Shown here in pieces: positions 24,571-62,236 of a DNA stretch of 64,000 nt. Position numbers and translations under genes: made by a program. Under the pieces are notes generated by a model. That model was not told the DNA's origin and ran no database searches. It worked only from the letters and a program-made list of their open reading frames with translations. Source of the stretch: Phycisphaerae bacterium (lineage in GTDB: Bacteria > Planctomycetota > Phycisphaerae > UBA1845 > UTPLA1); the NCBI GenBank assembly GCA_023150615.1, contig JAKLKO010000002.1, positions 124,001-188,000 on the forward strand. The letters run 5' to 3'. How positions within the stretch are numbered: position 1 is the first letter of the stretch; every line of letters starts with the position of its first letter.

Positions 24571-24765
24571 ATGAAACGACGGTGGGCCTTCTGGCGGATC
24601 GCGGCATCGGTGACACTTGCGGCGCCGGCGGCGATCGGACTTGGTAGCTGTACCCGCGTCCTCCAGCAGAATATCGAAGTGCTCTTCGCACCCGAAGTGC
24701 TGCAAACCGCGGTATTCCTGCCGTTTACTTGGATCTACCGGGTCTTTGGGGGATGGCAGCTCTGA
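24571..24765 (+). CDS. Small exported protein of 64 residues, possibly a lipoprotein
   Basis: The ATG at 24571 follows GGGAGATGAGCG, a usable ribosome site. The product has a basic start MKRRWAFWRIAASV, a hydrophobic core TLAAPAAIGLG and then SCTRVLQQNIEV. The Cys at residue 27 could be a lipidation site, though GLGSC is an imperfect lipobox. The rest is short and hydrophobic (VLQTAVFLPFTWIYRVFGGW). The function is unknown. Its own promoter and the 19-bp gap to the FHA phosphatase gene suggest that both are cotranscribed. Confidence 0.6.
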   Translation: MKRRWAFWRIAASVTLAAPAAIGLGSCTRVLQQNIEVLFAPEVLQTAVFLPFTWIYRVFGGWQL

Positions 24766-24784
24766 AACGACTGCCGGCGGCGAA

Positions 24785-26392
24785 ATGTACGAGGTCCACA
24801 TCCAGCTTCCCGGCGGCAAGGTCGTGCGACAACCCATCGATCGCGCGACCTGCTACATCGGCCGAGACGCCTCGTGCGAAATTACGCTCGAAGACTCGCT
24901 CGTCACGCGACGCCACGCACGGCTCTACCGCGACAACCTCGGCCACTTCTGGGTCGAGGACCTCCGCAGCAAGAACGGCACGACCGTCAACGACAATGCC
25001 ATCACCAACGCTCGCGTTCGCGAGGGCGATCGCATCGGAATCGGCTCCTGCGTGCTCACGCTTCACGAACTCGAAGGCGAGCATGTCGTCCTCGCCGAGA
25101 TCGAGACCCGCTTCGGCAGCACGTCCGTCTGGCGGAAGGACCAGCGGTTCAATCTCCCCCAGGTACGCCTCGAAAAGCTCTACGAGCTCAACGAGCGCAT
25201 CACCGGCCGCTTCGACCGCGACCAGCTCCTCGCCGAACTGATCAACGTCTGCATCGACGCGCTGCGATTCGATCGCGCCGGCATCGCCCTTTGGCCCGGC
25301 GAACCCCATCCGCCTCAGTGGGTCGCGCTCCGCAGCCTCGTCCGCGACGCCAGCGGCGAATTCCGAATCAGCCGCAGCATCGTTCAGCGCGCCCTGCAGC
25401 TCGGCGAACGCATCCTCATCAACGACGTCGCCAGCGATCTCCCCGATCCGACCGCCAGCATGATCAGCAACAACATCCGCTCTGCGATCTGCGTGCCGCT
25501 CCTCTTCCACGACAAGGTCCACGGCGTGCTGTACGGCGACCGGGTCACCGCCACGGCAGGCTACACCAAGGAAGACGTCGACTTCTTCGCCGCCCTCGCC
25601 CGACAGGCCGCCATCGCACTCGCCAACGTCCAGCTCCTCGAAGAGCGCCAGCAGCGCCAACGCGTCGAACTTCAGTTCCAGCTCGCACGCCAGATTCAGA
25701 ATCGCCTCTTTCCCGGCGAGCCGCTGCACTGCGGCGGAGTTACCATCGAGGCCGTTAACGACCCGGGACAGACCGTCAGTGGCGATTACTTCGACTATTT
25801 TCTCCGGCCGGACGGCCAAATTGTCTTCGTCCTCGCCGACGTCGCCGGCAAGGGCATCCCGGCCGCGCTGCTCATGGCCAACCTGCAGGCCGCCGTGCAC
25901 GTCCTGATGTACGAGGCCCGCGACCTGCCCAGGGCCGTTACCGCCATCAATCGGCTCGTCTGCGCCAACGTCGAAAGCGGCCGGTTTATCACCGGCATCT
26001 TCGGCTGGCTCGATCCGGAGCAACGCAGCCTCTCGTTCGTCAACGCCGGCCATCCCCCGATCCTGCTCGTTCGCGCCGGTGGCGAAGTTGAGCCGCTGGC
26101 CTGCCCGCCCAGACTGCCGCTTGGCGTCGAGTCCGACGACTTGTACACGTCCGAGCACGTCGATCTGGGCAGCGACCCGCTGACGCTCTTTCTCTATTCC
26201 GACGGCGTTCCCGACGCGGCCAACGATCGCGATGAGCGATTCGGCGACAGGCGGATCGTGGACTCGCTCCGCGCATCCGCACGAGATACGCCCGCGGAGC
26301 AGCTCGCCCGCATGCGACGTGTGATCCAGCAATTCACCCGCAACCAGCCGCAGGTAGACGACATCACGATGCTCGCGATCCGCCTGGCGTAA
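24785..26392 (+). CDS. FHA-GAF-PP2C (SpoIIE/RsbU-type) serine phosphatase
   Basis: The 535-residue cytoplasmic signalling protein has three domains. A FHA phosphothreonine reader (about 5-95) shows CYIGRDASCEITLEDSLVTR and LRSKNGTTVN. A GAF domain (about 130-285) shows YELNERITGRFDRDQLLAEL, SAICVPLLFHDKVHGVLYGD and FFAALARQAAIALANVQLLE. A PP2C phosphatase domain (about 300-535) shows LARQIQNRLFPGE, SGDYFDYF, FVLADVAGKGIPAALLMANL, FVNAGHPP, LFLYSDGVPDA and DDITMLAIRL, including the metal-binding Asp residues. Such enzymes dephosphorylate anti-anti-sigma factors or other Ser/Thr phosphoproteins. The FHA domain implies coupling to a Ser/Thr kinase; the only kinase in the window is at 58620-61580. 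ATG 24785 is chosen because it opens the FHA domain. Confidence 0.9.
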   Translation: MYEVHIQLPGGKVVRQPIDRATCYIGRDASCEITLEDSLVTRRHARLYRDNLGHFWVEDLRSKNGTTVNDNAITNARVREGDRIGIGSCVLTLHELEGEHVVLAEIETRFGSTSVWRKDQRFNLPQVRLEKLYELNERITGRFDRDQLLAELINVCIDALRFDRAGIALWPGEPHPPQWVALRSLVRDASGEFRISRSIVQRALQLGERILINDVASDLPDPTASMISNNIRSAICVPLLFHDKVHGVLYGDRVTATAGYTKEDVDFFAALARQAAIALANVQLLEERQQRQRVELQFQLARQIQNRLFPGEPLHCGGVTIEAVNDPGQTVSGDYFDYFLRPDGQIVFVLADVAGKGIPAALLMANLQAAVHVLMYEARDLPRAVTAINRLVCANVESGRFITGIFGWLDPEQRSLSFVNAGHPPILLVRAGGEVEPLACPPRLPLGVESDDLYTSEHVDLGSDPLTLFLYSDGVPDAANDRDERFGDRRIVDSLRASARDTPAEQLARMRRVIQQFTRNQPQVDDITMLAIRLA

Positions 26393-26436: not shown

Positions 26437-28137
26437 CTATTCGTCGGCGTCGCCGAACGAGTGCTCGAGGTGATGGGTCGCGAGGACGCGTCGCAGCTTC
26501 CGCAGCGCCCGCTCCTTGATCTGCCGCGTCCGTTCCTTGCTGATCCCCAGTTCGACGCCAACCTCGTCGAGCGTCACTGGAGAGTTCGATGCCGCGGCGA
26601 GCCCGAAGTACCTTTCGAGCACCGTCCGCTCACGCGGATCGAGCTCCGACACGGCTTGCCGCAGTAATCGCGCCATGTCCGCATTGGGCTCGCGGCGGGG
26701 TTCATCCGACGCGGGCGCGTCGACGGGCTCCATCGTCGCCGCCGCGCCGGTTCGATGCCGACGCTGCCATTGAATCGAGTCCGGGACCACCCGCGCCAGC
26801 CGCCGGGTGATGACCCACGTCGCATAGGTGCTGAATCGGAACCCGCGCGAATAGTCGAATCGATCGATTGCGTGCAGCAGCGAGATGTTACCTTCGCCGA
26901 TCAGGTCTGCCAGCGCGACGCCGTGCAGCCCGCGGACGTGCCGCTTTGCGATGCTGATCACGAGCCGCAGATTTGCCTCGACGATCGCCGCCTTGACCCT
27001 CGCCGCGCGCGTAAGCCACTCCCGCACCTCGGCCACGGCGGCGTCCGACGGCGTCAACGGCCGGATCGCCTGTCGGACGCGTTCCGCCCTGAACTTCAGG
27101 TAGTTGTATCGCCGGAACAACTCGCGTTCGCCCGCCGCCGTCAGCAGCGGTACGCGATAGCACGCCACCAGGCTCGGACCCAGCGAATCCGGAACCCGTC
27201 CGTCCGGCCGCTCCCGCAGGACGTCCTCGACCGGACCGTCGCCCGGCCCACCGAGAATCATCGCTTCGGCATCCGGCGCGTCGAACACATCCGAATGCAC
27301 GTATTCGATCGGCCGCTCGGCAATCTCGCGCGCCCTCGCCCGTGCGATCGCCGCCTCGATCGCCTCGCGCGGCTGCACCAGCCGCTGCGCGAGCGACGCC
27401 GTGTCCTCGCCCGCGCGAACCGCCGCGAGCAGCTCGCCATCCGTATCCGGCGTTCGATCGAACGCCGCGCAATCGGCGTCGAGTTCAATCGGCTCGATCG
27501 CGCGTCGCAGCAGGACTCGGATCGTCTCCGTCGCCCGGCCCGTCTCCGACGCGATCCGCCGCGCCAGCGCGTGGATCGATTGTGGCTCCTCGGCAAGCAG
27601 CGCCCGCGCCCGTGCAACGATCGCCGCGCGCTCCGCAACGGTCATGACCTGGAAGCGGCCCGCGCGCCGAACGAGTTCCGCCTGCTTCCGCAGAAAACGA
27701 TGCACCGAGTCGATGGAATATGCGAGGTACGGCCGGCCCTCGGGCGCGACGTACCATCGTCCGCACAACCCTCGACTTCGCCAGCGCGACAGCGTCCGGC
27801 CGCACACGTGCAATCGCGATTCGAGCTGGTCAGCCCTCAGCAGCGCACCGCCGGCCGAGGCGTCCGCCAACGGCGCCGACGAACTGAGCGATTCGATCAG
27901 CAAGACAAGATCGGCGATCAGATCAGCGCCGGGCAGGGCGCTCGACGTACCGGATCGCCTGGGTCGGTAACCGGTCAGCGAAAACGTGACGAACTCGAGC
28001 GGGTACTCGCGCGCGGATTCGACAAAGCCGAGCAGCCGCTCCGCTGCGGCTAGCTGCCGCAACCGATGGCGAACGGGCGACATGCTCAACTCGTGAGCCA
28101 AGCGAGCGATCTCAGGCAGTCGATAGTCGCTTTTCAT
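26437..28137 (-). CDS. Sigma70-family sigma factor with long N-terminal extension and no region 3
   Basis: The 566-residue product ends in a recognisable sigma core. Region 1.2/2 spans about 340-455 (LTAAGERELFRRYNYLKFRA, ANLRLVISIAKRHVRGLHGV, DLIGEGNISLLHAIDRFDYS, RGFRFSTYATWVITRRL). Region 4 covers the last ~70 residues (SELDPRERTVLERYFGL, LDEVGVELGISKERTRQIKE). Only about 45 charged residues lie between them, so region 3 is missing. The first ~340 residues include helix-turn-helix-like parts (LESRLHVCGRTLSRWRSRGL, ARRIASETGRATETIRVLL) and are unlike standard sigma regions. It is probably an alternative sigma of a lineage-specific type. A TATAAC with an overlapping inverted repeat precedes the ATG. 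Confidence 0.88.
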   Translation of the reverse strand: MKSDYRLPEIARLAHELSMSPVRHRLRQLAAAERLLGFVESAREYPLEFVTFSLTGYRPRRSGTSSALPGADLIADLVLLIESLSSSAPLADASAGGALLRADQLESRLHVCGRTLSRWRSRGLCGRWYVAPEGRPYLAYSIDSVHRFLRKQAELVRRAGRFQVMTVAERAAIVARARALLAEEPQSIHALARRIASETGRATETIRVLLRRAIEPIELDADCAAFDRTPDTDGELLAAVRAGEDTASLAQRLVQPREAIEAAIARARAREIAERPIEYVHSDVFDAPDAEAMILGGPGDGPVEDVLRERPDGRVPDSLGPSLVACYRVPLLTAAGERELFRRYNYLKFRAERVRQAIRPLTPSDAAVAEVREWLTRAARVKAAIVEANLRLVISIAKRHVRGLHGVALADLIGEGNISLLHAIDRFDYSRGFRFSTYATWVITRRLARVVPDSIQWQRRHRTGAAATMEPVDAPASDEPRREPNADMARLLRQAVSELDPRERTVLERYFGLAAASNSPVTLDEVGVELGISKERTRQIKERALRKLRRVLATHHLEHSFGDADE

Positions 28138-46142: not shown

Positions 46143-46208
46143 CCGGTCCCGACACGTCGGTTGAATGTGACGGCCGCAAGATCTCGCATCGTCGGTTCCG
46201 CTTCGGAA

Positions 46209-48023
46209 ATGTCGTTACCCATGCTGTCGCTTCATCGCATCCGTGCCGGGATTCAACTCGCTCTGCTTCTTGTCCTGGCGATGGTCGTCGCCTGCGGGTT
46301 GCTCTGGCTCGGGTCCGCACCGCCAGACGCCGCGGAACTGAGCATCGTCGAAGGTGTCTCCATCGCCACGCTCGATCCGGCGGAGGTGAGCTGGCTCCAG
46401 GACATCCGCATCGTCTCGCAACTCTACGAGGGCCTTTACGCTCCCGATCCGCGCGGAATGGAATCCCATCCCGCATGCAGCGAACCGGCCGAGCGCCTCG
46501 AACTCCCGGCCGGCGGCGTACGCTATCGCTTCCGTATTCGAGCCGGCTCGGTCTGGAGCGATGGCTCACCGGTCACGGCCGATGACTTTCTTTTCGCTTG
46601 GAGGCGCGCGCTCGAACCGGGGACGGCCCGCGACTACAGCTTTTTCTTTCACCATATCCGCGGCGTTGCCGAGTACGTGGACTGGCGCCATCGCGAGATT
46701 GAGCGCATCCGCGAGCTACCCCACTCGAACGGCATCGTCGAACGCCATGCGCACCTTCGCGACGCCGACCTGCACTTCGCTGAGACGGTTGGCCTGCGTG
46801 CCCCGGACCCGCGAACGCTCGACGTGGAACTGGTGCGGCCGATTCCCTACTTTCTTCACCTCGTCTCGTTGCCGGTATTCCTGCCGCTGCATCGTGCGAC
46901 CGTCGAGCCGCACAGGCGCATCAGCGACGCCGGCCTTTTCTACTACGACCCCCAATGGACGAAGCCCGGCCGCACTGCCTACAACGGCCCGTACATCCTC
47001 GACCACTGGCGATTCAAGCGCGGCCTGCGGCTGCGCCGGAACGAGCGCTTTCGTGCTGCGACACCCGATGCACCGCAGACCGTTGACGTGCTCGATGTCA
47101 ACGACACAAACACCGCCTGGCTCATGTACGAGACGGGCCGCGCGGATTGGCTCCTTTCGATCGACACCAGCTTCGTTTCCCAGCTCGTCCGGATTGCCGA
47201 TTCGCCCCTGCCCGGCGCGATCAACACGGGCGGCACGATTCGCCGGGACATCCATTCCTTCGAAACGTTCGGAACCTATTTCTTCAACGTCAACTGCCGA
47301 CCGACGCTCAACGATGGCTCCCCCAACCCCTTCGCCGATCCGCGCGTCCGACGCGCCGTCAGCCTCGCGATCGACCGCGAGGCCATCTGCCGCGACGTGA
47401 CGCGCCGCGGCGAGCCGCCGGCCACGACGCTCGTCCCGCCGAAGATGCTCCCCGACTATCCGACGCTCTCGGGACTCTCATTCAGTCCAACGGCCGCGCG
47501 TGCCGCTCTCGACGATGCCGGCTGGACGGCCGGAAAACCCCCGCCGGAGATCACCATCCTCTACAGCACCGACGCCAACCATCCGCTCATCGCGCAGGCC
47601 GTCGCATCGATGCTGACGAGGCACCTCGGACTCCGCACGCGCCTGATCGGGAAGGAGCCGCGTTCCTACCGCGCCGACAAGCAGCGCCACGATTTCATGC
47701 TCGCGCGCGGCGCGTGGTTCGGCGATTACCCTGATCCCTGCACGTTTCTGGAGATCTTCCGCACGGGCGACGGCAACAACGACTCGGCATACGATGACCC
47801 CGTGTACGACGACCTGCTTCGACGCGCCAACGAGTGCGACGATCCGGCCGAGCGCGGGCGCCGGCTCGCCGACGCCGAACACCGACTCATCACCGAGACC
47901 GTCCCGGCCATCCCCCTCTTTCACTTCGTCAACACCTACGCCCTCGACCCCCACGTGATCGCGGGAGTCCAACTCAACCCGCGATTGCTCGTCCAGCTTC
48001 GATCCATCGCGGTGAAGCCGTGA
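46209..48023 (+). CDS. oppA: Oligopeptide-type ABC transporter substrate-binding lipoprotein
   Basis: This is an extracytoplasmic receptor of a peptide/opine/nickel-type importer (family 5 solute-binding protein). From ATG 46209 (604 residues) there is a lipoprotein signal, GIQLALLLVLAMVVAC with Cys 29 as lipid site. The family-5 pattern follows: SIVEGVSIATLDPAEVSWLQ, LYEGLYAPDPRG, VWSDGSPVTADDFLFAWRRA, AYNGPYILDHWRFKR, FADPRVRRAVSLAIDREAIC, VPPKMLPDYP and DYPDPCTFLEIF. The start shown by the longest frame is a TTG at 46161 and is unlikely. The stop overlaps the GTG of the first permease gene. Specificity cannot be read from sequence. Confidence 0.9.
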   Translation: MSLPMLSLHRIRAGIQLALLLVLAMVVACGLLWLGSAPPDAAELSIVEGVSIATLDPAEVSWLQDIRIVSQLYEGLYAPDPRGMESHPACSEPAERLELPAGGVRYRFRIRAGSVWSDGSPVTADDFLFAWRRALEPGTARDYSFFFHHIRGVAEYVDWRHREIERIRELPHSNGIVERHAHLRDADLHFAETVGLRAPDPRTLDVELVRPIPYFLHLVSLPVFLPLHRATVEPHRRISDAGLFYYDPQWTKPGRTAYNGPYILDHWRFKRGLRLRRNERFRAATPDAPQTVDVLDVNDTNTAWLMYETGRADWLLSIDTSFVSQLVRIADSPLPGAINTGGTIRRDIHSFETFGTYFFNVNCRPTLNDGSPNPFADPRVRRAVSLAIDREAICRDVTRRGEPPATTLVPPKMLPDYPTLSGLSFSPTAARAALDDAGWTAGKPPPEITILYSTDANHPLIAQAVASMLTRHLGLRTRLIGKEPRSYRADKQRHDFMLARGAWFGDYPDPCTFLEIFRTGDGNNDSAYDDPVYDDLLRRANECDDPAERGRRLADAEHRLITETVPAIPLFHFVNTYALDPHVIAGVQLNPRLLVQLRSIAVKP

Positions 48024-48952
48024 TCCGGCGTATTGCAACACGTCTCATCCAGTTGCCCCTCCTCCTCTTCGTCATCTACTCGTTGACGTTTCTCATGATC
48101 GTGGCCGTCCCGGGCAATCCCTTTCAGCGCGATGGGGGCCGGGCGATTTCGCCCGTCGTCGAACAAGCCCTTCGCGAGCGCTACGGCATGCAGGACAATC
48201 TCGCGTTCTACGGTCGCTATTTGCAGCGATTGTTCCACGGCGACCTCGGCCGATCACTCCAGTACGAGAACTGGTCCTGCAACGAGATCATCGCCGCCAG
48301 CCTGCCGGTCTCGATCACCGTGGGTCTGACCGCCATCGCCATCGCCACGCTCGGCGGCGTCACGCTCGGCATTCTCGCCGCCATCTACCGTCACGGCGCC
48401 TGCGACGCGTTCGCGCTGTTCGTCAGCATCCTCGGCGTCAGCGTCCCGACGTTCGTCATTGGCGCGGGCCTGCTCGTGCTATTCAGTGTCACCCTCCCGG
48501 TGCTGCCCGTCGGGACGTGGGATTCGCCGCTCGATCTCGTGCGTCCCGCCGTCACGCTCTCGCTCGTTCCTCTGGCCTACATCCTCCGACTCACGCGACT
48601 TGGCATGATCGAGGCCCTCCAGAGCGACTACGTCCGCACCGCCCGCGCAAAGGGCCTCTCCGAATCCACGGTGATCTTCCGCCACGCTCTGCCCAACGCG
48701 ATGCCTCCGGTGCTCGCCTACCTCGGGCCCGCGTCCGCCGCCGCCATGACCGGCTCCTTCGTCATTGAGCGCGTCTTCAACATCCCCGGCATGGGCCTGC
48801 ACTTCGTCAACAGCGTTCTCAATCGAGACCAGATGCTCATCCTCGCCTGTGTGCTCGTCTACTCCGCGATCCTCATCACTCTCAATGCTGTCGTTGACGT
48901 CGCGCACGCCTGGATCGATCCTCGTATTCGAGTCGGAGGGGCACGCGCATGA
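48020..48952 (+). CDS. oppB: Peptide ABC transporter permease (OppB-type)
   Basis: This is one of two inner-membrane permeases of the importer. The 310-residue product starts at GTG 48020, overlapping the oppA stop (GTGA). It shows RLIQLPLLLFVIYSLTFLMI, the conserved PGNPFQRDGG, LRERYGMQDNLAFYGRYL, DLGRSLQYENW, six expected spans, and the EAA loop EALQSDYVRTARAKGLSEST followed by RHALPNAMPPVLAYLG. The EAA loop docks on the ATPases. The C-terminus ends with the typical AWIDPRIR. Confidence 0.93.
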   Translation: MIRRIATRLIQLPLLLFVIYSLTFLMIVAVPGNPFQRDGGRAISPVVEQALRERYGMQDNLAFYGRYLQRLFHGDLGRSLQYENWSCNEIIAASLPVSITVGLTAIAIATLGGVTLGILAAIYRHGACDAFALFVSILGVSVPTFVIGAGLLVLFSVTLPVLPVGTWDSPLDLVRPAVTLSLVPLAYILRLTRLGMIEALQSDYVRTARAKGLSESTVIFRHALPNAMPPVLAYLGPASAAAMTGSFVIERVFNIPGMGLHFVNSVLNRDQMLILACVLVYSAILITLNAVVDVAHAWIDPRIRVGGARA

Positions 48953-49866
48953 CCGCGATGTCGTCCGGCACTGCCGCGCCGCGAGCTTCGGCGACTCGCA
49001 GGCTGCTTCGCAGCCGTCGAACCACGGTCGCCTCGCCGATCCTCCTCGGAATCATCGTCGTTTGCTTCATCGGCGCCTGGCCTGCCGTCAAGCGCAGCGA
49101 CGTGACCTCGCTGTCCAACGCCCGCATGCCGCCGGGCGCGCAAGCCTGGTTCGGCACGGACCTGCTCGGCCGATCGCTCGCCGCGAGATGCATCCTCGGC
49201 GGCGCGATCAGTCTCGCTGTCGGGATCGCCGCGGCGATCTTCAGTGTCGGCCTCGGCGTCGTCTGGGGATCGGTGGCCGCGATGGCCGGCGGTCGGGTCG
49301 ATGCGATCATGATGCGGATCGTCGACGTGCTCTTCGGCCTGCCCTACATCCTCCTCGTTATTCTGCTGAAAATCGGGCTGGAGGGCCTTTTGCGACTGCG
49401 GCTCGGTCTCGGACATCACGCCACCGACCTCGTCATCCTCATGCTCGCGATCGGCGGCGTCAGTTGGCTGACCATGGCCCGCGTCATCCGCGCGCGCATG
49501 CTCACCCTGCTCGCGGCCCCGTTCATCGAAGCCGCCCGAGCAATCGGCGTCTCGCCGATCGGCGTCTGGCGGCGGCACCTGCTCCCGAATCTCCTCGACA
49601 CGATCATCGTCTACGCGGCGCTGACCGTTCCACAGGCCATCCTGCAGGAGTCGTTCCTCAGCTTCCTGGGCATCGGCGTCGCACCGCCGCTCCCGAGCTG
49701 GGGCAATCTCGCCGCCGATGGCGTCGCGGCCGTCAACACGATCGAGAGCTTCTGGTGGATGCTCGTGTTTCCGTGCGGACTGCTCTCGCTCACGTTGCTT
49801 TGTATGAACGCGCTCGGAGAAGGGCTTCGCGACGCCCTCGATCCGCGCGGAGATCGTCGCGCATGA
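48949..49866 (+). CDS. oppC: Peptide ABC transporter permease (OppC-type)
   Basis: This is the second permease, 305 residues, overlapping oppB by ATGA. Motifs: an N-terminal cytoplasmic stretch, a first span SPILLGIIVVCFIGAWPAV, WFGTDLLGRSLAARCILGGA (the TDxxGRD-like permease motif), a multi-span core, the EAA loop FIEAARAIGVSPIGVWRRHL, and the OppC-type ESFLSFLGIGVAPPLPSWG. The last segment ALGEGLRDALDPR is also typical. It pairs with OppB to form the transmembrane channel. Confidence 0.93.
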   Translation: MTAMSSGTAAPRASATRRLLRSRRTTVASPILLGIIVVCFIGAWPAVKRSDVTSLSNARMPPGAQAWFGTDLLGRSLAARCILGGAISLAVGIAAAIFSVGLGVVWGSVAAMAGGRVDAIMMRIVDVLFGLPYILLVILLKIGLEGLLRLRLGLGHHATDLVILMLAIGGVSWLTMARVIRARMLTLLAAPFIEAARAIGVSPIGVWRRHLLPNLLDTIIVYAALTVPQAILQESFLSFLGIGVAPPLPSWGNLAADGVAAVNTIESFWWMLVFPCGLLSLTLLCMNALGEGLRDALDPRGDRRA

Positions 49867-50849
49867 CAGACCGCCCCCGTCTGATAGACGTGTCGGACCT
49901 TACGGTCGTCGTCCGCGCCGCCGGTGCGGAACTTCCCGCGGTCGACCGCGTCTCGTTTCATGTCGATCGTGCCGAGACCGTTGCCCTCGTCGGCGAAAGC
50001 GGCTCCGGAAAGACGCTCGCCGCGCTCGCCCTCATGAACCTCCTGCCCGACGGCGTTCGCCGTTCGTCCGGTTCGATTCGCCTCGATGGCCGCGAGCTTT
50101 CCACCCTCTCCCCGCGCGAGTGGCGCACCATCCGCGGCTCGCGGATCGCGATGGTCTTTCAGGAGCCGATGACCGCCCTGAATCCCCTCATGCGAATCGC
50201 TGATCAGGTCGCCGAGGCCGCGCGAGGCCCGTCCGGAGAACGGCTGCCGCCCGATGCCGCGCGACGGGAGGCGATTGAACTCCTCCGCAGTGTCGGGATC
50301 GCCGATGCCGCACTCTGCGCGGACCGCTACCCGCACGAGCTTTCCGGCGGAATGCGCCAGCGCGTGCTGATTGCGATGGCCATCGCCGGCCGGCCCGACC
50401 TCCTCATCGCCGATGAGCCGACCACGGCCCTCGACGTCACCATCCAGGCGCAGATCCTCGCGCTGCTCAAGTCCCTGCGCCGCGGTGAACAGATGGGAAT
50501 GCTCGTCATCACCCACGACTTCGGCATCGTCGCAGAACTCGCCGACCGCGTGGTCGTCCTCTACGCAGGTCGTGTCGCGGAGGCGGGCCAGACGCGCGAC
50601 GTGCTCCGACGCCCGCTTCATCCGTACACCCGCGGACTGCTCGAGTGCATGCCGGTCATGCAAGCATCCGCGACGCGACTGCCGGTGATTAACGGCTGCG
50701 TGCCCGGGATCGCGGACCGCCCGTGCGGCTGTCGCTTTCACCCGCGCTGCACGCTCGGACGCGACGACCCGACGTGCATATCGACGGAGCCCGCACTCGC
50801 AGGCATGGGCGGAGATCGACTCGTCGCCTGCTGGAAGGCCGCAACATGA
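49863..50849 (+). CDS. oppD: Peptide ABC transporter ATPase (OppD-type)
   Basis: This is a cytoplasmic ATPase of the importer. The 328-residue product (ATG 49863, overlapping oppC) has Walker [10 protein letters not shown] near 37-45, the Q-loop region [14 protein letters not shown], signature [16 protein letters not shown], Walker [15 protein letters not shown] and the switch THDF. The C-terminal oligopeptide-transporter domain has [15 protein letters not shown] and the Cys-bearing [12 protein letters not shown]. All catalytic residues are present. It should form a heterodimer with the next gene product. Confidence 0.94.
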
Positions 50850-51877
50850 CTCGCGCTTCGTCGCATCCGCTGCTGGAGGTCGAAAACCTCCACGTTCGCT
50901 TCGCCTCGACGGATCAACACGGCCGGTACGCAACCCTTCATGCCGTCACCGGCGTTTCATTCCGTATCGCGCCCGGTGAGACGCTCGGCATCGTTGGCGA
51001 AAGCGGCTGCGGCAAGTCCACGCTCGCGCGGGCCGTCCTGCGCCTCGTCCCGTGCACGGCCGATCGGCTTCACTTCGCCGGCCAGGACCTCCGATCACTC
51101 CGCGGCCGCGCGCTGCGCGCCGTGCGTCGCGAGGCGCAGATGGTCTTTCAGGATCCCTACGGCACGCTCAATCCCCGCATGACCGTTGAGCAGATCGTCG
51201 GCGAACCGTTGCAGGTCCATCGCCTCGTCGATGACGCAGGGCGCCGTCGCCGGGTCATCGAGCTGCTGCAACGCGTCGGGCTGTCGGACGACCATCTTCT
51301 GCGCTATCCGCACGAATTCTCCGGCGGACAGCGCCAGCGGATCGGCATCGCCCGCGCGCTGGCGACCAACCCGCGACTCCTCGTCTGCGATGAACCCGTC
51401 TCGGCGCTGGATCTCTCAGTCCAGTCGCAGATCATCAACCTGATCGCAGGCCTCCGGCGCGACCTCGGCCTCGCGTGCCTCTTCATCGCGCACAACCTCG
51501 CCGTCGTCCGCCATCTGTGCGATCGTGTCGCGGTGCTCTATCTCGGCCGCATCGTGGAACTTGGACCGACCACGGCCGTATTCGACGATCCGCGCCACCC
51601 CTACACACAGAGCCTGCTCGCGTCCGTTCCGCGCGCTGATCCGGACGAAGGCCGGACCTTGCCGACGTTGACCGGCGAACCCCCATCGCCCCTGAACCCT
51701 CCGCACGGCTGTACGTTTCACCCGCGCTGCCCGTTTGTCGAGCCGCGCTGTCGCGAAATAGAGCCGACGCTTCAGGCGCACGCCGGCCTGGACCACGGCC
51801 ACCTCGCTGCCTGCCACCTTGCCGAAACCCTCACCCCGAATGCCACCGCGCATGCCCTGTCCGGGCTGCGTGCGTGA
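50846..51877 (+). CDS. oppF: Peptide ABC transporter ATPase (OppF-type)
   Basis: This is the second ATPase, 343 residues, overlapping oppD by ATGA. Motifs: Walker A GESGCGKST, MVFQDPYGTLNPRMTVEQIV, signature FSGGQRQRIGIARALA, Walker B LLVCDEPVSALDLS, switch IAHNLAVVRHL, and the C-terminal RHPYTQSLLASVPRADPDE with GCTFHPRCPF. The GESGCGKST and VSALD forms are typical of OppF/DppF. It is the last gene of the operon. A 6-bp hairpin (51909-51928) lies beyond the stop, without a T-run. Confidence 0.94.
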   Translation: MTRASSHPLLEVENLHVRFASTDQHGRYATLHAVTGVSFRIAPGETLGIVGESGCGKSTLARAVLRLVPCTADRLHFAGQDLRSLRGRALRAVRREAQMVFQDPYGTLNPRMTVEQIVGEPLQVHRLVDDAGRRRRVIELLQRVGLSDDHLLRYPHEFSGGQRQRIGIARALATNPRLLVCDEPVSALDLSVQSQIINLIAGLRRDLGLACLFIAHNLAVVRHLCDRVAVLYLGRIVELGPTTAVFDDPRHPYTQSLLASVPRADPDEGRTLPTLTGEPPSPLNPPHGCTFHPRCPFVEPRCREIEPTLQAHAGLDHGHLAACHLAETLTPNATAHALSGLRA

Positions 51878-58084: not shown

Positions 58085-58582
58085 ATGAATACAAAACCGT
58101 TGCCCATGATCGTGGCGCTGTCGCTCGCCGTGTTATCGATCTCCGGCGCTCAGGCGGCGGTGCACAACCTCACGGCCACGCTCGACGGCCTCCAGGAAAC
58201 GCCGCCGGTCGTGACACCTGGGAGTGGCGCTGCGACGATGACTTTGGACGACGTCACGAACCAGTTCACGCTCACGGGGACATTTCAAAACCTGATCGGC
58301 CCGACGAGCGCTGCCCACGTGCACGGCCCCGCCCCCGTGGGGGCGCCGGCCGGCGTGCTCTTCGGCATCCTGTTCGACTTAGGCGTGGCGTCGGGCAATT
58401 TCAGTTTCAACGGCGTCATCACGCCCGCGCAGACGCAGACGATTCTCGACGGGCTGGCGTACATCAACATCCACACGAACTTCCGCCCCGGCGGCGAGAT
58501 CCGCGGGCAGATCACTCCGGAGCCGTCGTCGCTTGCGCTGCTTGGCGCGGGTCTGATCGGCCTCATCCGTCGCCGGCGCTAG
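58085..58582 (+). CDS. CHRD-domain protein with PEP-CTERM sorting signal
   Basis: The 165-residue exported protein has a signal peptide (PMIVALSLAVLSISGAQA). A CHRD domain (about 27-140) shows LTATLDGLQETPPVVTPGSG, AHVHGPAPVGAPAGVLFGIL and the typical end YINIHTNFRPGGEIRGQI. The C-terminal PEP-CTERM signal reads PEPSSLALLGAGLIGLIRRR. PEP-CTERM proteins are cleaved by an exosortase and usually reach the cell surface or matrix; no exosortase gene is in the window. CHRD domains occur in chordin and many bacterial surface proteins; the ligand is unknown. GGAAGGAAA before ATG 58085 is a good ribosome site. Confidence 0.93.
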   Translation: MNTKPLPMIVALSLAVLSISGAQAAVHNLTATLDGLQETPPVVTPGSGAATMTLDDVTNQFTLTGTFQNLIGPTSAAHVHGPAPVGAPAGVLFGILFDLGVASGNFSFNGVITPAQTQTILDGLAYINIHTNFRPGGEIRGQITPEPSSLALLGAGLIGLIRRRR

Positions 58583-58619: not shown

Positions 58620-61580
58620 TCAGCGCTCGTTCCGACGCGACCCGAATCCAGCGCCAACGCGAACGGCCGACCTCTCGACCGGCTGCTCGTGACTGGACTC
58701 CGAATTCCGCACCCACCAGTCCAGAACGCCCGGCCGGACACGCAGCGGACCGGACGGCGACAGCTCGACGTTTCGCAGCGACCGGGACCTGGCCCAAAGA
58801 TCGGGCCGATGATACAGAAACAGCATCGGCTGGTCCTCGTAGATCACCCGGTGTACGCGCCGAAGTGACGCCGCCCGGACCTGCGGATCGGCGGTCGATG
58901 CGGCCTTCGCAAACAACTCATCGACCTCCGAATTGGAGTAGCGGCCGAAGTTCCGCCTTGATTTCGTCCCGTAGTACTCGCGCCACATCGCCACATCAAC
59001 GGACGGCCGCACCTCGCCGATGATCGCGTCAAACTGCGCGTCCGTCATCCGCCGCCTGTACTCCGTATCGTCAGCCGGACCGGCAGTGCTCAGCGGCTCC
59101 GTCGTGACTTCGACGCCGATCGCGTGCAGCGATGCCCGGACGATCTCCGCGATCTTCCGACACGTCGCGCTCGACTCCGGGACCGCCAGACGAAATGCCA
59201 ACCGCCCTTTTGCGGTCGGCGCGGACGTCGCCGTCCCACGGCCGGCCGGCGCGTCGAACCCTGCCTCGCGAAGTAATCGCGCGGCCAAAGCTGGGTCGAA
59301 TCGAAGCAGCCGAACGTCGGGATGAAAGTACGGTGAATCCACCGGGAACGGGCCGCCGCAGGGCATGCCCATGCGATTCGACGCCTGATCCCGGATCTGC
59401 TGCACGTGGATGGCGTGCGCCATCGCGCGCCGCACGCGCCGGTCCGCGAACGGCGAGCCGCTCGCATGATCGCAATTCCATAGCACATACAGGAAGTTCG
59501 AATACGGCGACTCACATGCCGGTAGCAGTTCTCCTTGCGACGTAAACTCGGCGGTGTACGCGTCGATCGTCGCCTGCGACTCCGAGATGCGGATCAGGTC
59601 CAACTCGCGCTTCATGAACAGCGATAGCTGATCCGCCGGGCTTACCTTTCGGAGGACGACTCGATTCACCAACGGCCGCGGCCCGGCGTCCTCGAATCGC
59701 TCCAGCGTGAGCGTGTCCTCGTCCATCGACGCCAGCCGGTACGGGCCGCAGCCCACCGGGTCCGGCTCGATGGGCCACTCGCCGTCGGCGCCGGCCGACT
59801 CGCGGACGGCTGAGACATACGAGGAGTACGTTTCGCGCGGAATCAGTTCGAAGTTCAACAGGCGCTTCCAGTCGGCGTCCGGCGACTTGAAGACGACACG
59901 GACCGCCTCCTCGCCCTCTTTCGAGATGGACTCGATTTCGCGCCCCTCGGCGTGCCGCGCCGCATCGGGAACCTCGCACGCGGCCTTCCAGCTGAACACG
60001 ATGTCCTCCGGCGTGATCGGCGACCCGTCATGCCAGTGCAGATTCGGCTTCAATCGAACGATGCGAATGCGCGGATCGCCCGTCGCCTCGATCGCGCACA
60101 ACCGCTCGTTCGGGTGAAACGTGAAGTCCGCCCGTAGTTCGCAGAGCGAATCAAACAGAAGCGAGAGTACCGTCAACTCGGCCTCATTCCGCGGCCAGAA
60201 CGGCGCCAGCGTCCCCACGTCCTCGAAGATCGCCGCGCGCACCGTTGCGTCACGATCGACAAGCCGCAGGTCGGCCGGCGGCGGCTCGGGCTTCGGTCGA
60301 TCACGGCCGGACAGTTCCGCCTCGATCTCCTGCTTGAGTGCCTGCGACCGGTACTCATTGAGTTCGCGCGCCAGGGCCTCGGTCTTCTGTCGGACCGTAT
60401 CCAGTTCTGTGGCCGATCGGACGGTGAGGTATCCCGCACCCAGCACCGTCGCGCCGATCAACCCGAACGTCGCGATCGACCGCCGGTGGTGCGACACGCG
60501 CTTTCGGAAGAGGTACCACCCCCTGTCGCGCTTCGCCTCGATCGGCTCTCCCGCGAGAAAGTGCGCCAGGTCCTTCCCGAATTCGCTGGCCGACTGATAA
60601 CGCCGCTCGGGCTCCTTCGACAGTGCCTTCAGCACGATCGTCTCGAGATCGTTGTCCAGTTTGCGGCGAACCGCGCTCGGGCGCCGCGGCGCAGCCTTGA
60701 GGATGTTGTCGAGCACTTCGCGCATGTTGCCGACGACGTTGTACGGAAACGCCCCCGTCAGGAGCTGATACAGGATTACTCCGAGCGAGTAGATGTCCGT
60801 GCGTGAATCGACGTGCTCCGAATCGCCGGACGCCTGTTCCGGGCTCATGTACGGCAGCGTGCCGAGCACCTGGCCCGAGAGCGAGATCAGGATCGGCCCG
60901 TCTTGGCCGCTGAGCCTTCCGCCCGCGGACTTGGCCATGCCGAAATCGAGCACGTGCGGTTCGCCACGATGGTCGACGAGGATGTTCGACGGCTTGAGAT
61001 CCCGATGCACGATCCCGCGCCGGTGCGCGTAGTCGACCGCGTCGCAGACCTTCGTGAACGTCGCCAGCATCTGCTTGACCGGCACGTTCGAGCCATGCAC
61101 GGACTCGTCGAACCGCTTCCCGCGGATATAGTCCATCGCGTAGAAGTAGAATCCCCGGCTCACGCCGCTGCCGACGACCTTGACGATGTTCGGATGATCA
61201 AGCGCCGCGATCAGCTCGATCTCGCGCTTGAAGCGCTCCTTCGCATCGTCGCCGGCGAACGGCCCTTCGCCGATCACCTTGATCGCGACCTTGCGGTTCG
61301 TCTCGATCTGCACTGCCTGGAACACGACCCCCTGACCGCCGCGGTGAATCTCCCGAATCAGCCGGTATCCGGGGAACGCGTCGGCCGGGAGGTCAAACGG
61401 AAGGTCCGACGCTCCGGCCCTCGCCCGGCCCCGCGCGAACTGGTCCCACTCCGTATTTGCACCCGCGGCCGCTTCCGCCTCCTCGACCTGTTCGCGCGCA
61501 CGGCGAATGAACGAATCATCCACGCGACGCGCCCCGCCCGCGGCATCCCGATCATGCTCATCCCGCGCCGGCGAATTCAT
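58620..61580 (-). CDS. Ser/Thr protein kinase fused to a periplasmic family-5 solute-binding domain
   Basis: The 986-residue receptor-like protein has a cytoplasmic kinase domain (about 71-345): glycine loop IHRGGQGVVFQAV, catalytic Lys 101 (VAIKVI), Glu 120, HRDLKPSN with Asp 194, DFG 212-214 and MSPEQ at 245-249. All key residues are present, so it should be active. One span follows (IATFGLIGATVLGAGYL, about 369-387), then a coiled-coil (about 392-425) and a Pro-rich hinge. Residues ~440-960 match a family-5 solute-binding protein: HWHDGSPITPEDIVFSWKAA, GCGPYRLASMDEDTLTLERF, FADRRVRRAMAHAIHVQQIR and GPFPVDSPYFHPDVRLL. Ligand binding outside probably controls the kinase. An ECF sigma gene lies 56 bp upstream on the same strand. 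Confidence 0.9.
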   Translation of the reverse strand: MNSPARDEHDRDAAGGARRVDDSFIRRAREQVEEAEAAAGANTEWDQFARGRARAGASDLPFDLPADAFPGYRLIREIHRGGQGVVFQAVQIETNRKVAIKVIGEGPFAGDDAKERFKREIELIAALDHPNIVKVVGSGVSRGFYFYAMDYIRGKRFDESVHGSNVPVKQMLATFTKVCDAVDYAHRRGIVHRDLKPSNILVDHRGEPHVLDFGMAKSAGGRLSGQDGPILISLSGQVLGTLPYMSPEQASGDSEHVDSRTDIYSLGVILYQLLTGAFPYNVVGNMREVLDNILKAAPRRPSAVRRKLDNDLETIVLKALSKEPERRYQSASEFGKDLAHFLAGEPIEAKRDRGWYLFRKRVSHHRRSIATFGLIGATVLGAGYLTVRSATELDTVRQKTEALARELNEYRSQALKQEIEAELSGRDRPKPEPPPADLRLVDRDATVRAAIFEDVGTLAPFWPRNEAELTVLSLLFDSLCELRADFTFHPNERLCAIEATGDPRIRIVRLKPNLHWHDGSPITPEDIVFSWKAACEVPDAARHAEGREIESISKEGEEAVRVVFKSPDADWKRLLNFELIPRETYSSYVSAVRESAGADGEWPIEPDPVGCGPYRLASMDEDTLTLERFEDAGPRPLVNRVVLRKVSPADQLSLFMKRELDLIRISESQATIDAYTAEFTSQGELLPACESPYSNFLYVLWNCDHASGSPFADRRVRRAMAHAIHVQQIRDQASNRMGMPCGGPFPVDSPYFHPDVRLLRFDPALAARLLREAGFDAPAGRGTATSAPTAKGRLAFRLAVPESSATCRKIAEIVRASLHAIGVEVTTEPLSTAGPADDTEYRRRMTDAQFDAIIGEVRPSVDVAMWREYYGTKSRRNFGRYSNSEVDELFAKAASTADPQVRAASLRRVHRVIYEDQPMLFLYHRPDLWARSRSLRNVELSPSGPLRVRPGVLDWWVRNSESSHEQPVERSAVRVGAGFGSRRNER

Positions 61581-61636
61581 TCCGCAGACCTCGATCGCTC
61601 ACGAAACCTCGGCCGGATCACGCTTGCCCGCGCCCG

Positions 61637-62236
61637 TCAGGACCTGGAGTCGATCTCCAGCAACTCCCGCAGACGATCGTGCGCCCGCGCGCGGAGCATG
61701 TACACCGCTCCCTCCGACCGGCCCAACGCGCGCGACACGTCCGCGATCGACTCGTCCGCGAGATCGTACCGCTCGACGACCAATCGATAATCCGCCGGCA
61801 ATTCCCGAACCGCCGATCGCAAGATCGAAATCGCCTCGTTCCGCACGAACTGCGCGCTCGGCGTCGAAACCGATCCGCTCAGCATGTCGAGCAGCGCTAC
61901 GGCCGATTCATCCCCGTCGCCGCAGACCTGCCGCCGCGGATTCGGACGCTTGTCCGCTTCGAGGCCGCGAATGGCGTCGCGCAAGTTGTTCTCCGCAATC
62001 CGTGCCAGCCACGGGACGAACGATGCCGACTCATGCAGCTCGAAACTCCCGATCCGCAGAAACGCCTCCAGGTACGTGACCTGCATCACGTCGTCTGCCG
62101 AAAGCACCGACTGGTACGCCGACGCGATCCGGCCGGCCAGCTTGGCCCGCACCTCCGGACCATGCCGCTGCAAGAGCGCGCTAATCGCGTCGCGATCCCC
62201 CTCGATCACCGCCTTCGTCAGCAGTTCGTCCGCCAT
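61637..62236 (-). CDS. ECF-type sigma factor linked to the receptor kinase
   Basis: From ATG 62236 (AGGG five bases upstream) the product has 199 residues, typical for ECF sigmas. Region 2 (about 20-90): AYQSVLSADDVMQVTYLEAF, SASFVPWLARIAENNLRDAI. Region 4 (about 135-190): AVRELPADYRLVVERYDLAD, ESIADVSRALGRSEGAVYML, RARAHDRLREL. The final helix-turn-helix is clear. ATG 62305 (222 residues) is a rival start, lying 6 bases after a TACAAT. No anti-sigma gene follows. Sigma factors paired with Ser/Thr kinases are a known planctomycete theme, and such sigmas may be controlled by phosphorylation. Cotranscription with the kinase gene is very likely. Confidence 0.9.
   Translation of the reverse strand: MADELLTKAVIEGDRDAISALLQRHGPEVRAKLAGRIASAYQSVLSADDVMQVTYLEAFLRIGSFELHESASFVPWLARIAENNLRDAIRGLEADKRPNPRRQVCGDGDESAVALLDMLSGSVSTPSAQFVRNEAISILRSAVRELPADYRLVVERYDLADESIADVSRALGRSEGAVYMLRARAHDRLRELLEIDSRS

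Follow-up and report, generated by a model that had tools for sequence, protein, structure and literature searches.

A receptor-like Ser/Thr kinase with a transporter-derived solute-binding ectodomain, encoded beside an ECF sigma factor in a planctomycete

Why should a solute-binding protein (SBP) be joined to a Ser/Thr kinase, and is the sigma factor encoded next door its target? The question is raised by a gene within a 64,000-nucleotide stretch of a Phycisphaerae genome (the window), the relevant features of which are collected in Table 1. The product, P0001, is read from a frame of 986 codons without interruption. It contains a protein kinase domain (Pkinase, E 5e-45, far over the Pfam cut-off) and a family-5 solute-binding domain (SBP_bac_5, E 2e-52 for residues 502–859; PF00496 scores 181.9 bits against a cut-off of 32.4). 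The VAIK, HRDLKPSN and DFG motifs are all intact, the nearest solved structure to the kinase domain is PknB, and the combination of catalytic Lys, HRD Asp, DFG and one span places the protein among the Hanks-type transmembrane Ser/Thr kinases. The hydropathy scan shows no second hydrophobic stretch before the SBP part that could act as a signal peptide, and it puts the span of the other fusions (see below) at the same place. Because a basic stretch, RKRVSHHRR, precedes the span, the kinase is predicted to lie inside and the SBP outside. The full-length model (pLDDT 79, 22 alignment rows) is less certain; in it a helical stalk follows the span and, with low confidence, residues 22–40 form a helix. 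An earlier, sequence-only reading had described a kinase with intact motifs, one span and a whole family-5 SBP on the far side of the membrane, and the Pfam matches, the hydropathy scan and the AlphaFold model agree with that description.

Table 1. Positions, within the window, of the genes and protein segments discussed
Feature	Position	Strand	Basis or remark
ECF-type sigma factor, P0002, 199 aa, regions 2 and 4	61637..62236	(-)	Pfam Sigma70_r2, r4_2
Sigma region 2.2 motif S46-A-D-D-V-M-Q-V	62078..62101	(-)	Alignment
Receptor-like Ser/Thr kinase with SBP ectodomain, P0001, 986 aa	58620..61580	(-)	Pfam
N-terminal helix motif FIRRAREQVEEAEA, residues 24–37	61470..61511	(-)	Candidate sigma-docking segment, motif comparison
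Protein kinase domain, residues 72–329	60594..61367	(-)	Pfam PF00069
Single transmembrane span, residues 369–387	60420..60476	(-)	Hydropathy scan
Extracytoplasmic helical stalk, residues about 388–426	60303..60419	(-)	Predicted helix 383–426
Complete family-5 solute-binding domain, residues about 444–958	58707..60251	(-)	Pfam PF00496, AF2, Foldseek, VIA-align
oppA-B-C-D-F peptide importer operon	46161..51877	(+)	Pfam; context
FHA-GAF-SpoIIE phosphatase	24617..26392	(+)	Pfam; context, 32 kb from kinase gene

A structure prediction had been proposed as a check on the ectodomain. The AlphaFold (AF2) model, built on a 39-row alignment, has a pLDDT of 87.2 and a pTM of 0.86. Its top Foldseek matches are family-5 SBPs without exception, and in VIA-align it superposes on unliganded NikZ (4oet) with a Z of 35.9 and an rmsd of 2.5 over 470 residues, compared with an rmsd of 4.1 for the liganded form of the same protein. 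These matches show that the ectodomain has both lobes of an SBP in full and that the model represents the open state. Both profile and fold are those of the SBP_bac_5 family, and the fold motifs WHDG, GxGPY and RVRRA are intact.

The binding pocket is another matter. Family-5 SBPs bind peptides, nickel complexes, sialic acid, opines and other ligands, and in OppA-type peptide binders a conserved W..D segment holds the amino end of the peptide. This signature is absent from the fused domain, which in the alignment has EVRPS where the OppA of the window has AWFGD. AppA (1xoc), a nonapeptide binder, likewise lacks the Asp of W..D, so that absence of the signature leaves peptide binding possible. 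Of the 97 positions that transporter relatives keep, however, the fused SBPs lack between 23 and 40; gone from all five fusions are the aromatic WNxW segment and the Trp of the pocket motif (segment ‘AAW-GTxxDPD’). With the W..D signature absent and this Trp gone, the earlier description of the ectodomain as a peptide-binding sensor is not supported, and the extent of the losses means that the domain might have given up small-molecule binding altogether. An alternative, credible although we consider it unlikely, is that the ectodomain now has a structural or protein-docking role and responds to a partner, for example the OppA/OppBC importer or some component of the envelope, with the output from kinase to sigma unchanged. 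The shared losses would suit such a role, as would the state of the window copy, which is the most eroded (57/97 kept) and sits on a long, fast-evolving branch of the SBP tree, but they have left the whole two-lobe fold and its motifs in place, in a model that resembles open, unliganded SBPs. The genomic context is similarly divided: a full opp operon lies about 7 kb from the kinase gene, yet no opp genes occur near the other fusions with a readable neighbourhood.

No ABC permease genes adjoin the fusion itself, and the opp permeases of the window belong with their own OppA, which together with the P0001 ectodomain accounts for the only two SBP_bac_5 matches in the genome. The proposal of a pathway without a transporter thus holds for the immediate neighbourhood only, since a complete oppABCDF importer shares the window. 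The suggestion that an FHA phosphatase opposes the kinase found no support; at 32 kb, the FHA-GAF-SpoIIE gene is too distant to imply a link.

Relatives were sought among 100 related genomes. In all, five genomes were found to carry the fusion, from two families of one planctomycete order: G000 (the window), G003, G016, G492 and G495, the G016 and G495 copies being cut by contig ends. Searches of the family (17 genomes) and the class (397 genomes) gave no further fusions, and a scan of a genome collection with a three-row SBP alignment found fusions only in the G003 and G016 records, the rest being free SBPs, many of them from other phyla. As four other genomes carry it, the fusion in P0001 is not an accident of assembly. 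That it is a functionless product of decaying or mis-joined genes is very improbable: the SBP part does evolve fast, but the same fusion recurs in five genomes of two families, and all five copies read without stops and keep the fold and the catalytic motifs.

The source of the ectodomain can be traced. None of the relatives of the domain examined outside the five genomes is joined to a kinase, and most adjoin peptide-importer permease genes. The nearest, which adjoin genes for OppB/OppC-type permeases, are mostly the second SBP (SBP2) of double operons with the order oppA-B-C-SBP2-B'-C'-D-F, or the SBPs of single opp-type operons; the phylum-wide matches that were inspected show the same pattern. 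By these sequence relationships the ectodomain derives from transporter SBPs, in line with the original idea that an SBP had been turned into the ectodomain of a kinase. In the tree of SBPs, one clade (100/99) unites four of the fused domains, and the fifth, from G495, joins it weakly (90/57). Raw identity groups the same four and places G495 nearer the transporters. Most fused SBPs are mutually closer by raw identity, which makes long-branch attraction alone a less likely source of the clade. Strict novelties shared by the fused SBPs, however, number only two positions, and with the domain of G495 standing closer to the transporters a second capture is possible. The best reading is one capture, perhaps two.

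The sigma gene lies directly upstream of the kinase gene, as first described, and ends 56 bp before it. P0002 has only sigma-70 regions 2 and 4 (Pfam), the make-up of an ECF (group 4 sigma-70) factor, and scores 64.2 bits against the NCBIfam model sigma70-ECF (cut-off 42.9). Its nearest NCBIfam model is Sig-70_plancto1 (TIGR02984), at 105.8 bits, under the curated cut-off of 183.75. Region 2.2 reads LSADDVMQVTY, so that the first acidic residue of DxxDxxQE, which is D or E in nearly all relatives, is Ser46. This serine is not unique to P0002, as another sigma factor of the group (L277) also has Ser. In ECF43 factors the DAED motif is replaced by a neutral one with a phospho-acceptor Thr; P0002 has SADD instead, and most relatives D/ExxD. 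Because two acidic residues are kept, P0002 need not rely on phosphorylation as ECF43 factors do, and an ECF43-like phospho-switch at Ser46 or Thr52 is possible.

The pairing of sigma and kinase is not particular to the window. Among relatives with at least 44% identity to P0002, a co-directional kinase lies directly downstream at 20/22 testable loci in the family (the window excluded) and at 18/21 testable loci that for the most part belong to other families of the order, 38 of 43 in total. The sigma gene on contig C581 of G016 was considered as a possible upstream neighbour of that genome's fused kinase, but no kinase could be clearly read in the 262 bases that follow it. A kinase next door and the absence of an anti-sigma are the marks of a kinase-activated ECF; both are found at the P0002 locus, where, as the sequence-only reading had it, no anti-sigma gene is evident beside the pair. 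The conserved gene order identifies the pair as an old module and not an accidental one. The partner kinases that were scanned with Pfam usually carry TPR ectodomains. Ahead of the kinase domain, the sigma-paired kinases share a motif, [WLF]-I-x-x-A-R-x-[QE], which in a slightly looser form is present in 21/23 paired and 2/29 unpaired kinases. The two exceptions, L238 and L239, are in fact near a gene of the sigma group (G016:C162:3424-3822 and G014:C1:1821595-1822164, respectively). In a second set of loci the fixed pattern occurs in 12/18, and most others are close variants by eye. The window kinase has the motif in the form FIRRAREQVEEAEA, which 13 of 20000 shuffles equalled. From this comparison we regard the N-terminal helix as probably serving to dock the sigma, and the window kinase probably controls the neighbouring sigma.

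In the kinase tree, the fusions do not stay together. The kinase domains of the window and G492 group with each other (100/99), that of G003 falls within the region of sigma-paired kinases, and those of G016 and G495 lie near other kinases. A single group of all five, which was set by architecture before the tree and includes two incomplete kinase rows, is rejected (AU p = 7e-6), and so is a group of the three fusions with complete kinase domains (AU p = 2.6e-4). Grouping the window kinase domain with the sigma-paired kinases is also rejected (AU p 1.7e-52). The N-terminal parts differ as well: a short helix motif in the window, a zf-HC2 finger in G492, and a class III cyclase followed by a degenerate kinase in G003. 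The G492 kinase, although kin of the window kinase domain, lacks the N-terminal motif. As to the neighbours, the earlier expectation that homologues should be found beside ECF genes is borne out in 2 of the 3 fusions with readable upstream DNA, the window and G492. The order in G492 is a different ECF sigma (with DAED kept), a zf-HC2 kinase and then the fusion, so that the sigma gene is one gene away; near the G003 fusion no sigma gene is recognised. For these reasons, a fusion–sigma pairing ancestral to all fusions was discarded.

Such differently wired sister fusions, together with the acidic residues kept in region 2.2, could mean that the sigma is not a substrate of the kinase, which would have other targets, the neighbourhood reflecting co-expression only. 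This is improbable in view of the kinase that follows so consistently in the sigma relatives and of an N-terminal motif that tracks the pairing; on a chimeric kinase such as that of the window, the motif is hard to account for without contact. Since the SBP ectodomains of four fusions form a clade and the kinases of the fusions do not, one capture of the sensor, or two, seems to have been followed by rewiring to different outputs; it appears that the SBP ectodomain moved between kinases, or that kinases and N-terminal modules were exchanged under it. Three outputs can be named: in the window a kinase with the candidate docking helix, in G492 a zf-HC2 kinase that has a different ECF sigma nearby, and in G003 a chain of cyclase, pseudokinase and kinase. 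We would tentatively go as far as regarding the transporter SBP as a portable receptor ectodomain with at least three outputs, which in the window would form a single-protein path from solute to sigma, the N-terminal helix being a new sigma-docking element.

The reading of P0001 that we favour, with reasonable but limited confidence, is that of a one-span receptor kinase in which an SBP has replaced the TPR ectodomain, passing the presence of a solute or partner through the kinase to a docked ECF sigma. In this model SBP2 of a duplicated peptide/nickel-type importer operon would have taken the place of the usual TPR ectodomain in a sigma-paired kinase. Outside the membrane, the two-lobed domain would close or change shape on meeting a small solute (or a protein partner), and the helical stalk and span would relay the signal as a change in the dimer or activity of the kinase. 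Held to its sigma by the N-terminal helix, the kinase may then phosphorylate or otherwise switch the adjoining factor, which would direct RNA polymerase to its own promoters. Sequence and prediction support the model as far as the sigma–kinase pairing and the N-terminal motif; the ligand sensing, kinase activation, docking, phosphorylation and promoter steps we infer. Counted against the model were the G003 fusion, with no sigma gene recognised nearby, the acidic pair in SADD and the lost pocket positions.

Already known are ECF–kinase pairs, including planctomycete groups (PMC8999054), direct phosphorylation of sigma factors (PMC13147305) and SBP control of a Ser/Thr kinase through separate proteins (PMC6069109). 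A literature search covering main texts and few subscription papers brought up no Ser/Thr kinase to which a family-5 SBP is fused. What appears new is the SBP ectodomain on an ECF-paired Ser/Thr kinase and its unusual evolutionary history. What switches on bacterial Ser/Thr kinases is regarded in the field as an unsettled question (PMC6069109), and numerous sigma–kinase pairs were found here in planctomycetes. With a soluble two-lobed ectodomain, and family ligands that can be screened by standard methods, the input of such a pair becomes directly testable. The motif found across the order is a concrete candidate for how partner kinases find their sigma, and the disagreement between the SBP and kinase trees suggests that receptors evolved here through the exchange of ectodomains. 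If correct, the model suggests how a molecule outside the cell could be linked directly to gene expression.

The closest systems are those in which a Hanks-type kinase is known to activate the sigma encoded next to it, namely the ECF43 pairs EcfP/PknT of Vibrio parahaemolyticus and EcfK/PknS of Xanthomonas citri (PMC8999054, PMC13147305). There too, the gene of a transmembrane Hanks-type kinase stands beside that of an ECF sigma with no anti-sigma partner. In these pairs the kinase phosphorylates and activates the sigma, and direct phosphorylation is known (PMC13147305), whereas phosphorylation of the window sigma would be an analogous step. ECF43 sigmas have the neutral STTA, QTTA or QATE in region 2.2 in place of SADD, and the available portions of these papers report no SBP ectodomain on ECF43 kinases and mention no shared N-terminal motif, both of which the window kinase has. 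By gene order, the planctomycete groups ECF59, ECF61, ECF62 and ECF217, which are proposed to be kinase-regulated, are alike in having the ECF beside a Ser/Thr kinase (STPK) and not an anti-sigma; groups other than ECF43 retain the acidic region 2.2 motif, as the window sigma does in part (PMC8999054). GlnH-GlnX-PknG of mycobacteria and corynebacteria also has an outside SBP that controls an inside Ser/Thr kinase, but through three separate proteins, with an SBP of the aspartate/glutamate type, and there the kinase is soluble and its target metabolic (PMC6069109, PMC9769921). P0001 differs from it in being one polypeptide with a family-5 SBP and, probably, a sigma target. The closest sequence relatives of the ectodomain, SBP2 of the duplicated opp operons in the same order, are free proteins encoded beside permeases and conserve the pocket-motif Trp that the fused ectodomain lacks. 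Finally, BvgS-type histidine kinases use the periplasmic binding-protein fold as a sensor, and so are likewise kinases with SBP-fold sensors, but they carry small Venus-flytrap domains on a histidine kinase, not a family-5 domain on a Ser/Thr kinase.

Kinases adjoining this sigma group (the relatives of the window ECF sigma, mostly with a kinase gene directly downstream) carry a short N-terminal helix motif, [WLF]IxxARx[QE], found order-wide (L187-L211, L268-L288), which is a candidate sigma-docking element. The window's own genome encodes another sigma of this group together with its kinase, whose ectodomain is TPR. In G003, a genome of the same order, five parts are combined in a single protein of 1571 aa (locus L231, likewise L053). 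Double peptide-importer operons, in which a single ATPase pair serves both SBPs and both permease pairs, are common in this order (L035, L036, L038, L039, L042 and others).

Features in the window and in related loci
Feature	Location	Strand	Composition
1571-aa fusion protein (G003)	L231:5708-10423		class III cyclase, degenerate kinase, intact kinase, span, SBP_bac_5
Second sigma-kinase pair (G000:C33)	L228:6269-9360
Sigma-kinase-kinase locus (G492)	L215:5433-11275		ECF sigma, zf-HC2 kinase, second zf-HC2 kinase (in gene order)
566-aa protein	window 26437-28137	-	long N-terminal part, sigma-70 regions 2 and 4
Small protein	window 58085-58582	+	CHRD domain, PEP-CTERM sorting signal

Within the window, the CHRD-domain protein gene is convergent with the kinase gene, and the gene for the 566-aa protein with that for the FHA-GAF-SpoIIE phosphatase.

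At the G492 locus, the SBP ectodomain is carried by the second of the two kinases. Their zf-HC2 is an anti-sigma-like finger, joined to kinases that adjoin their sigma.
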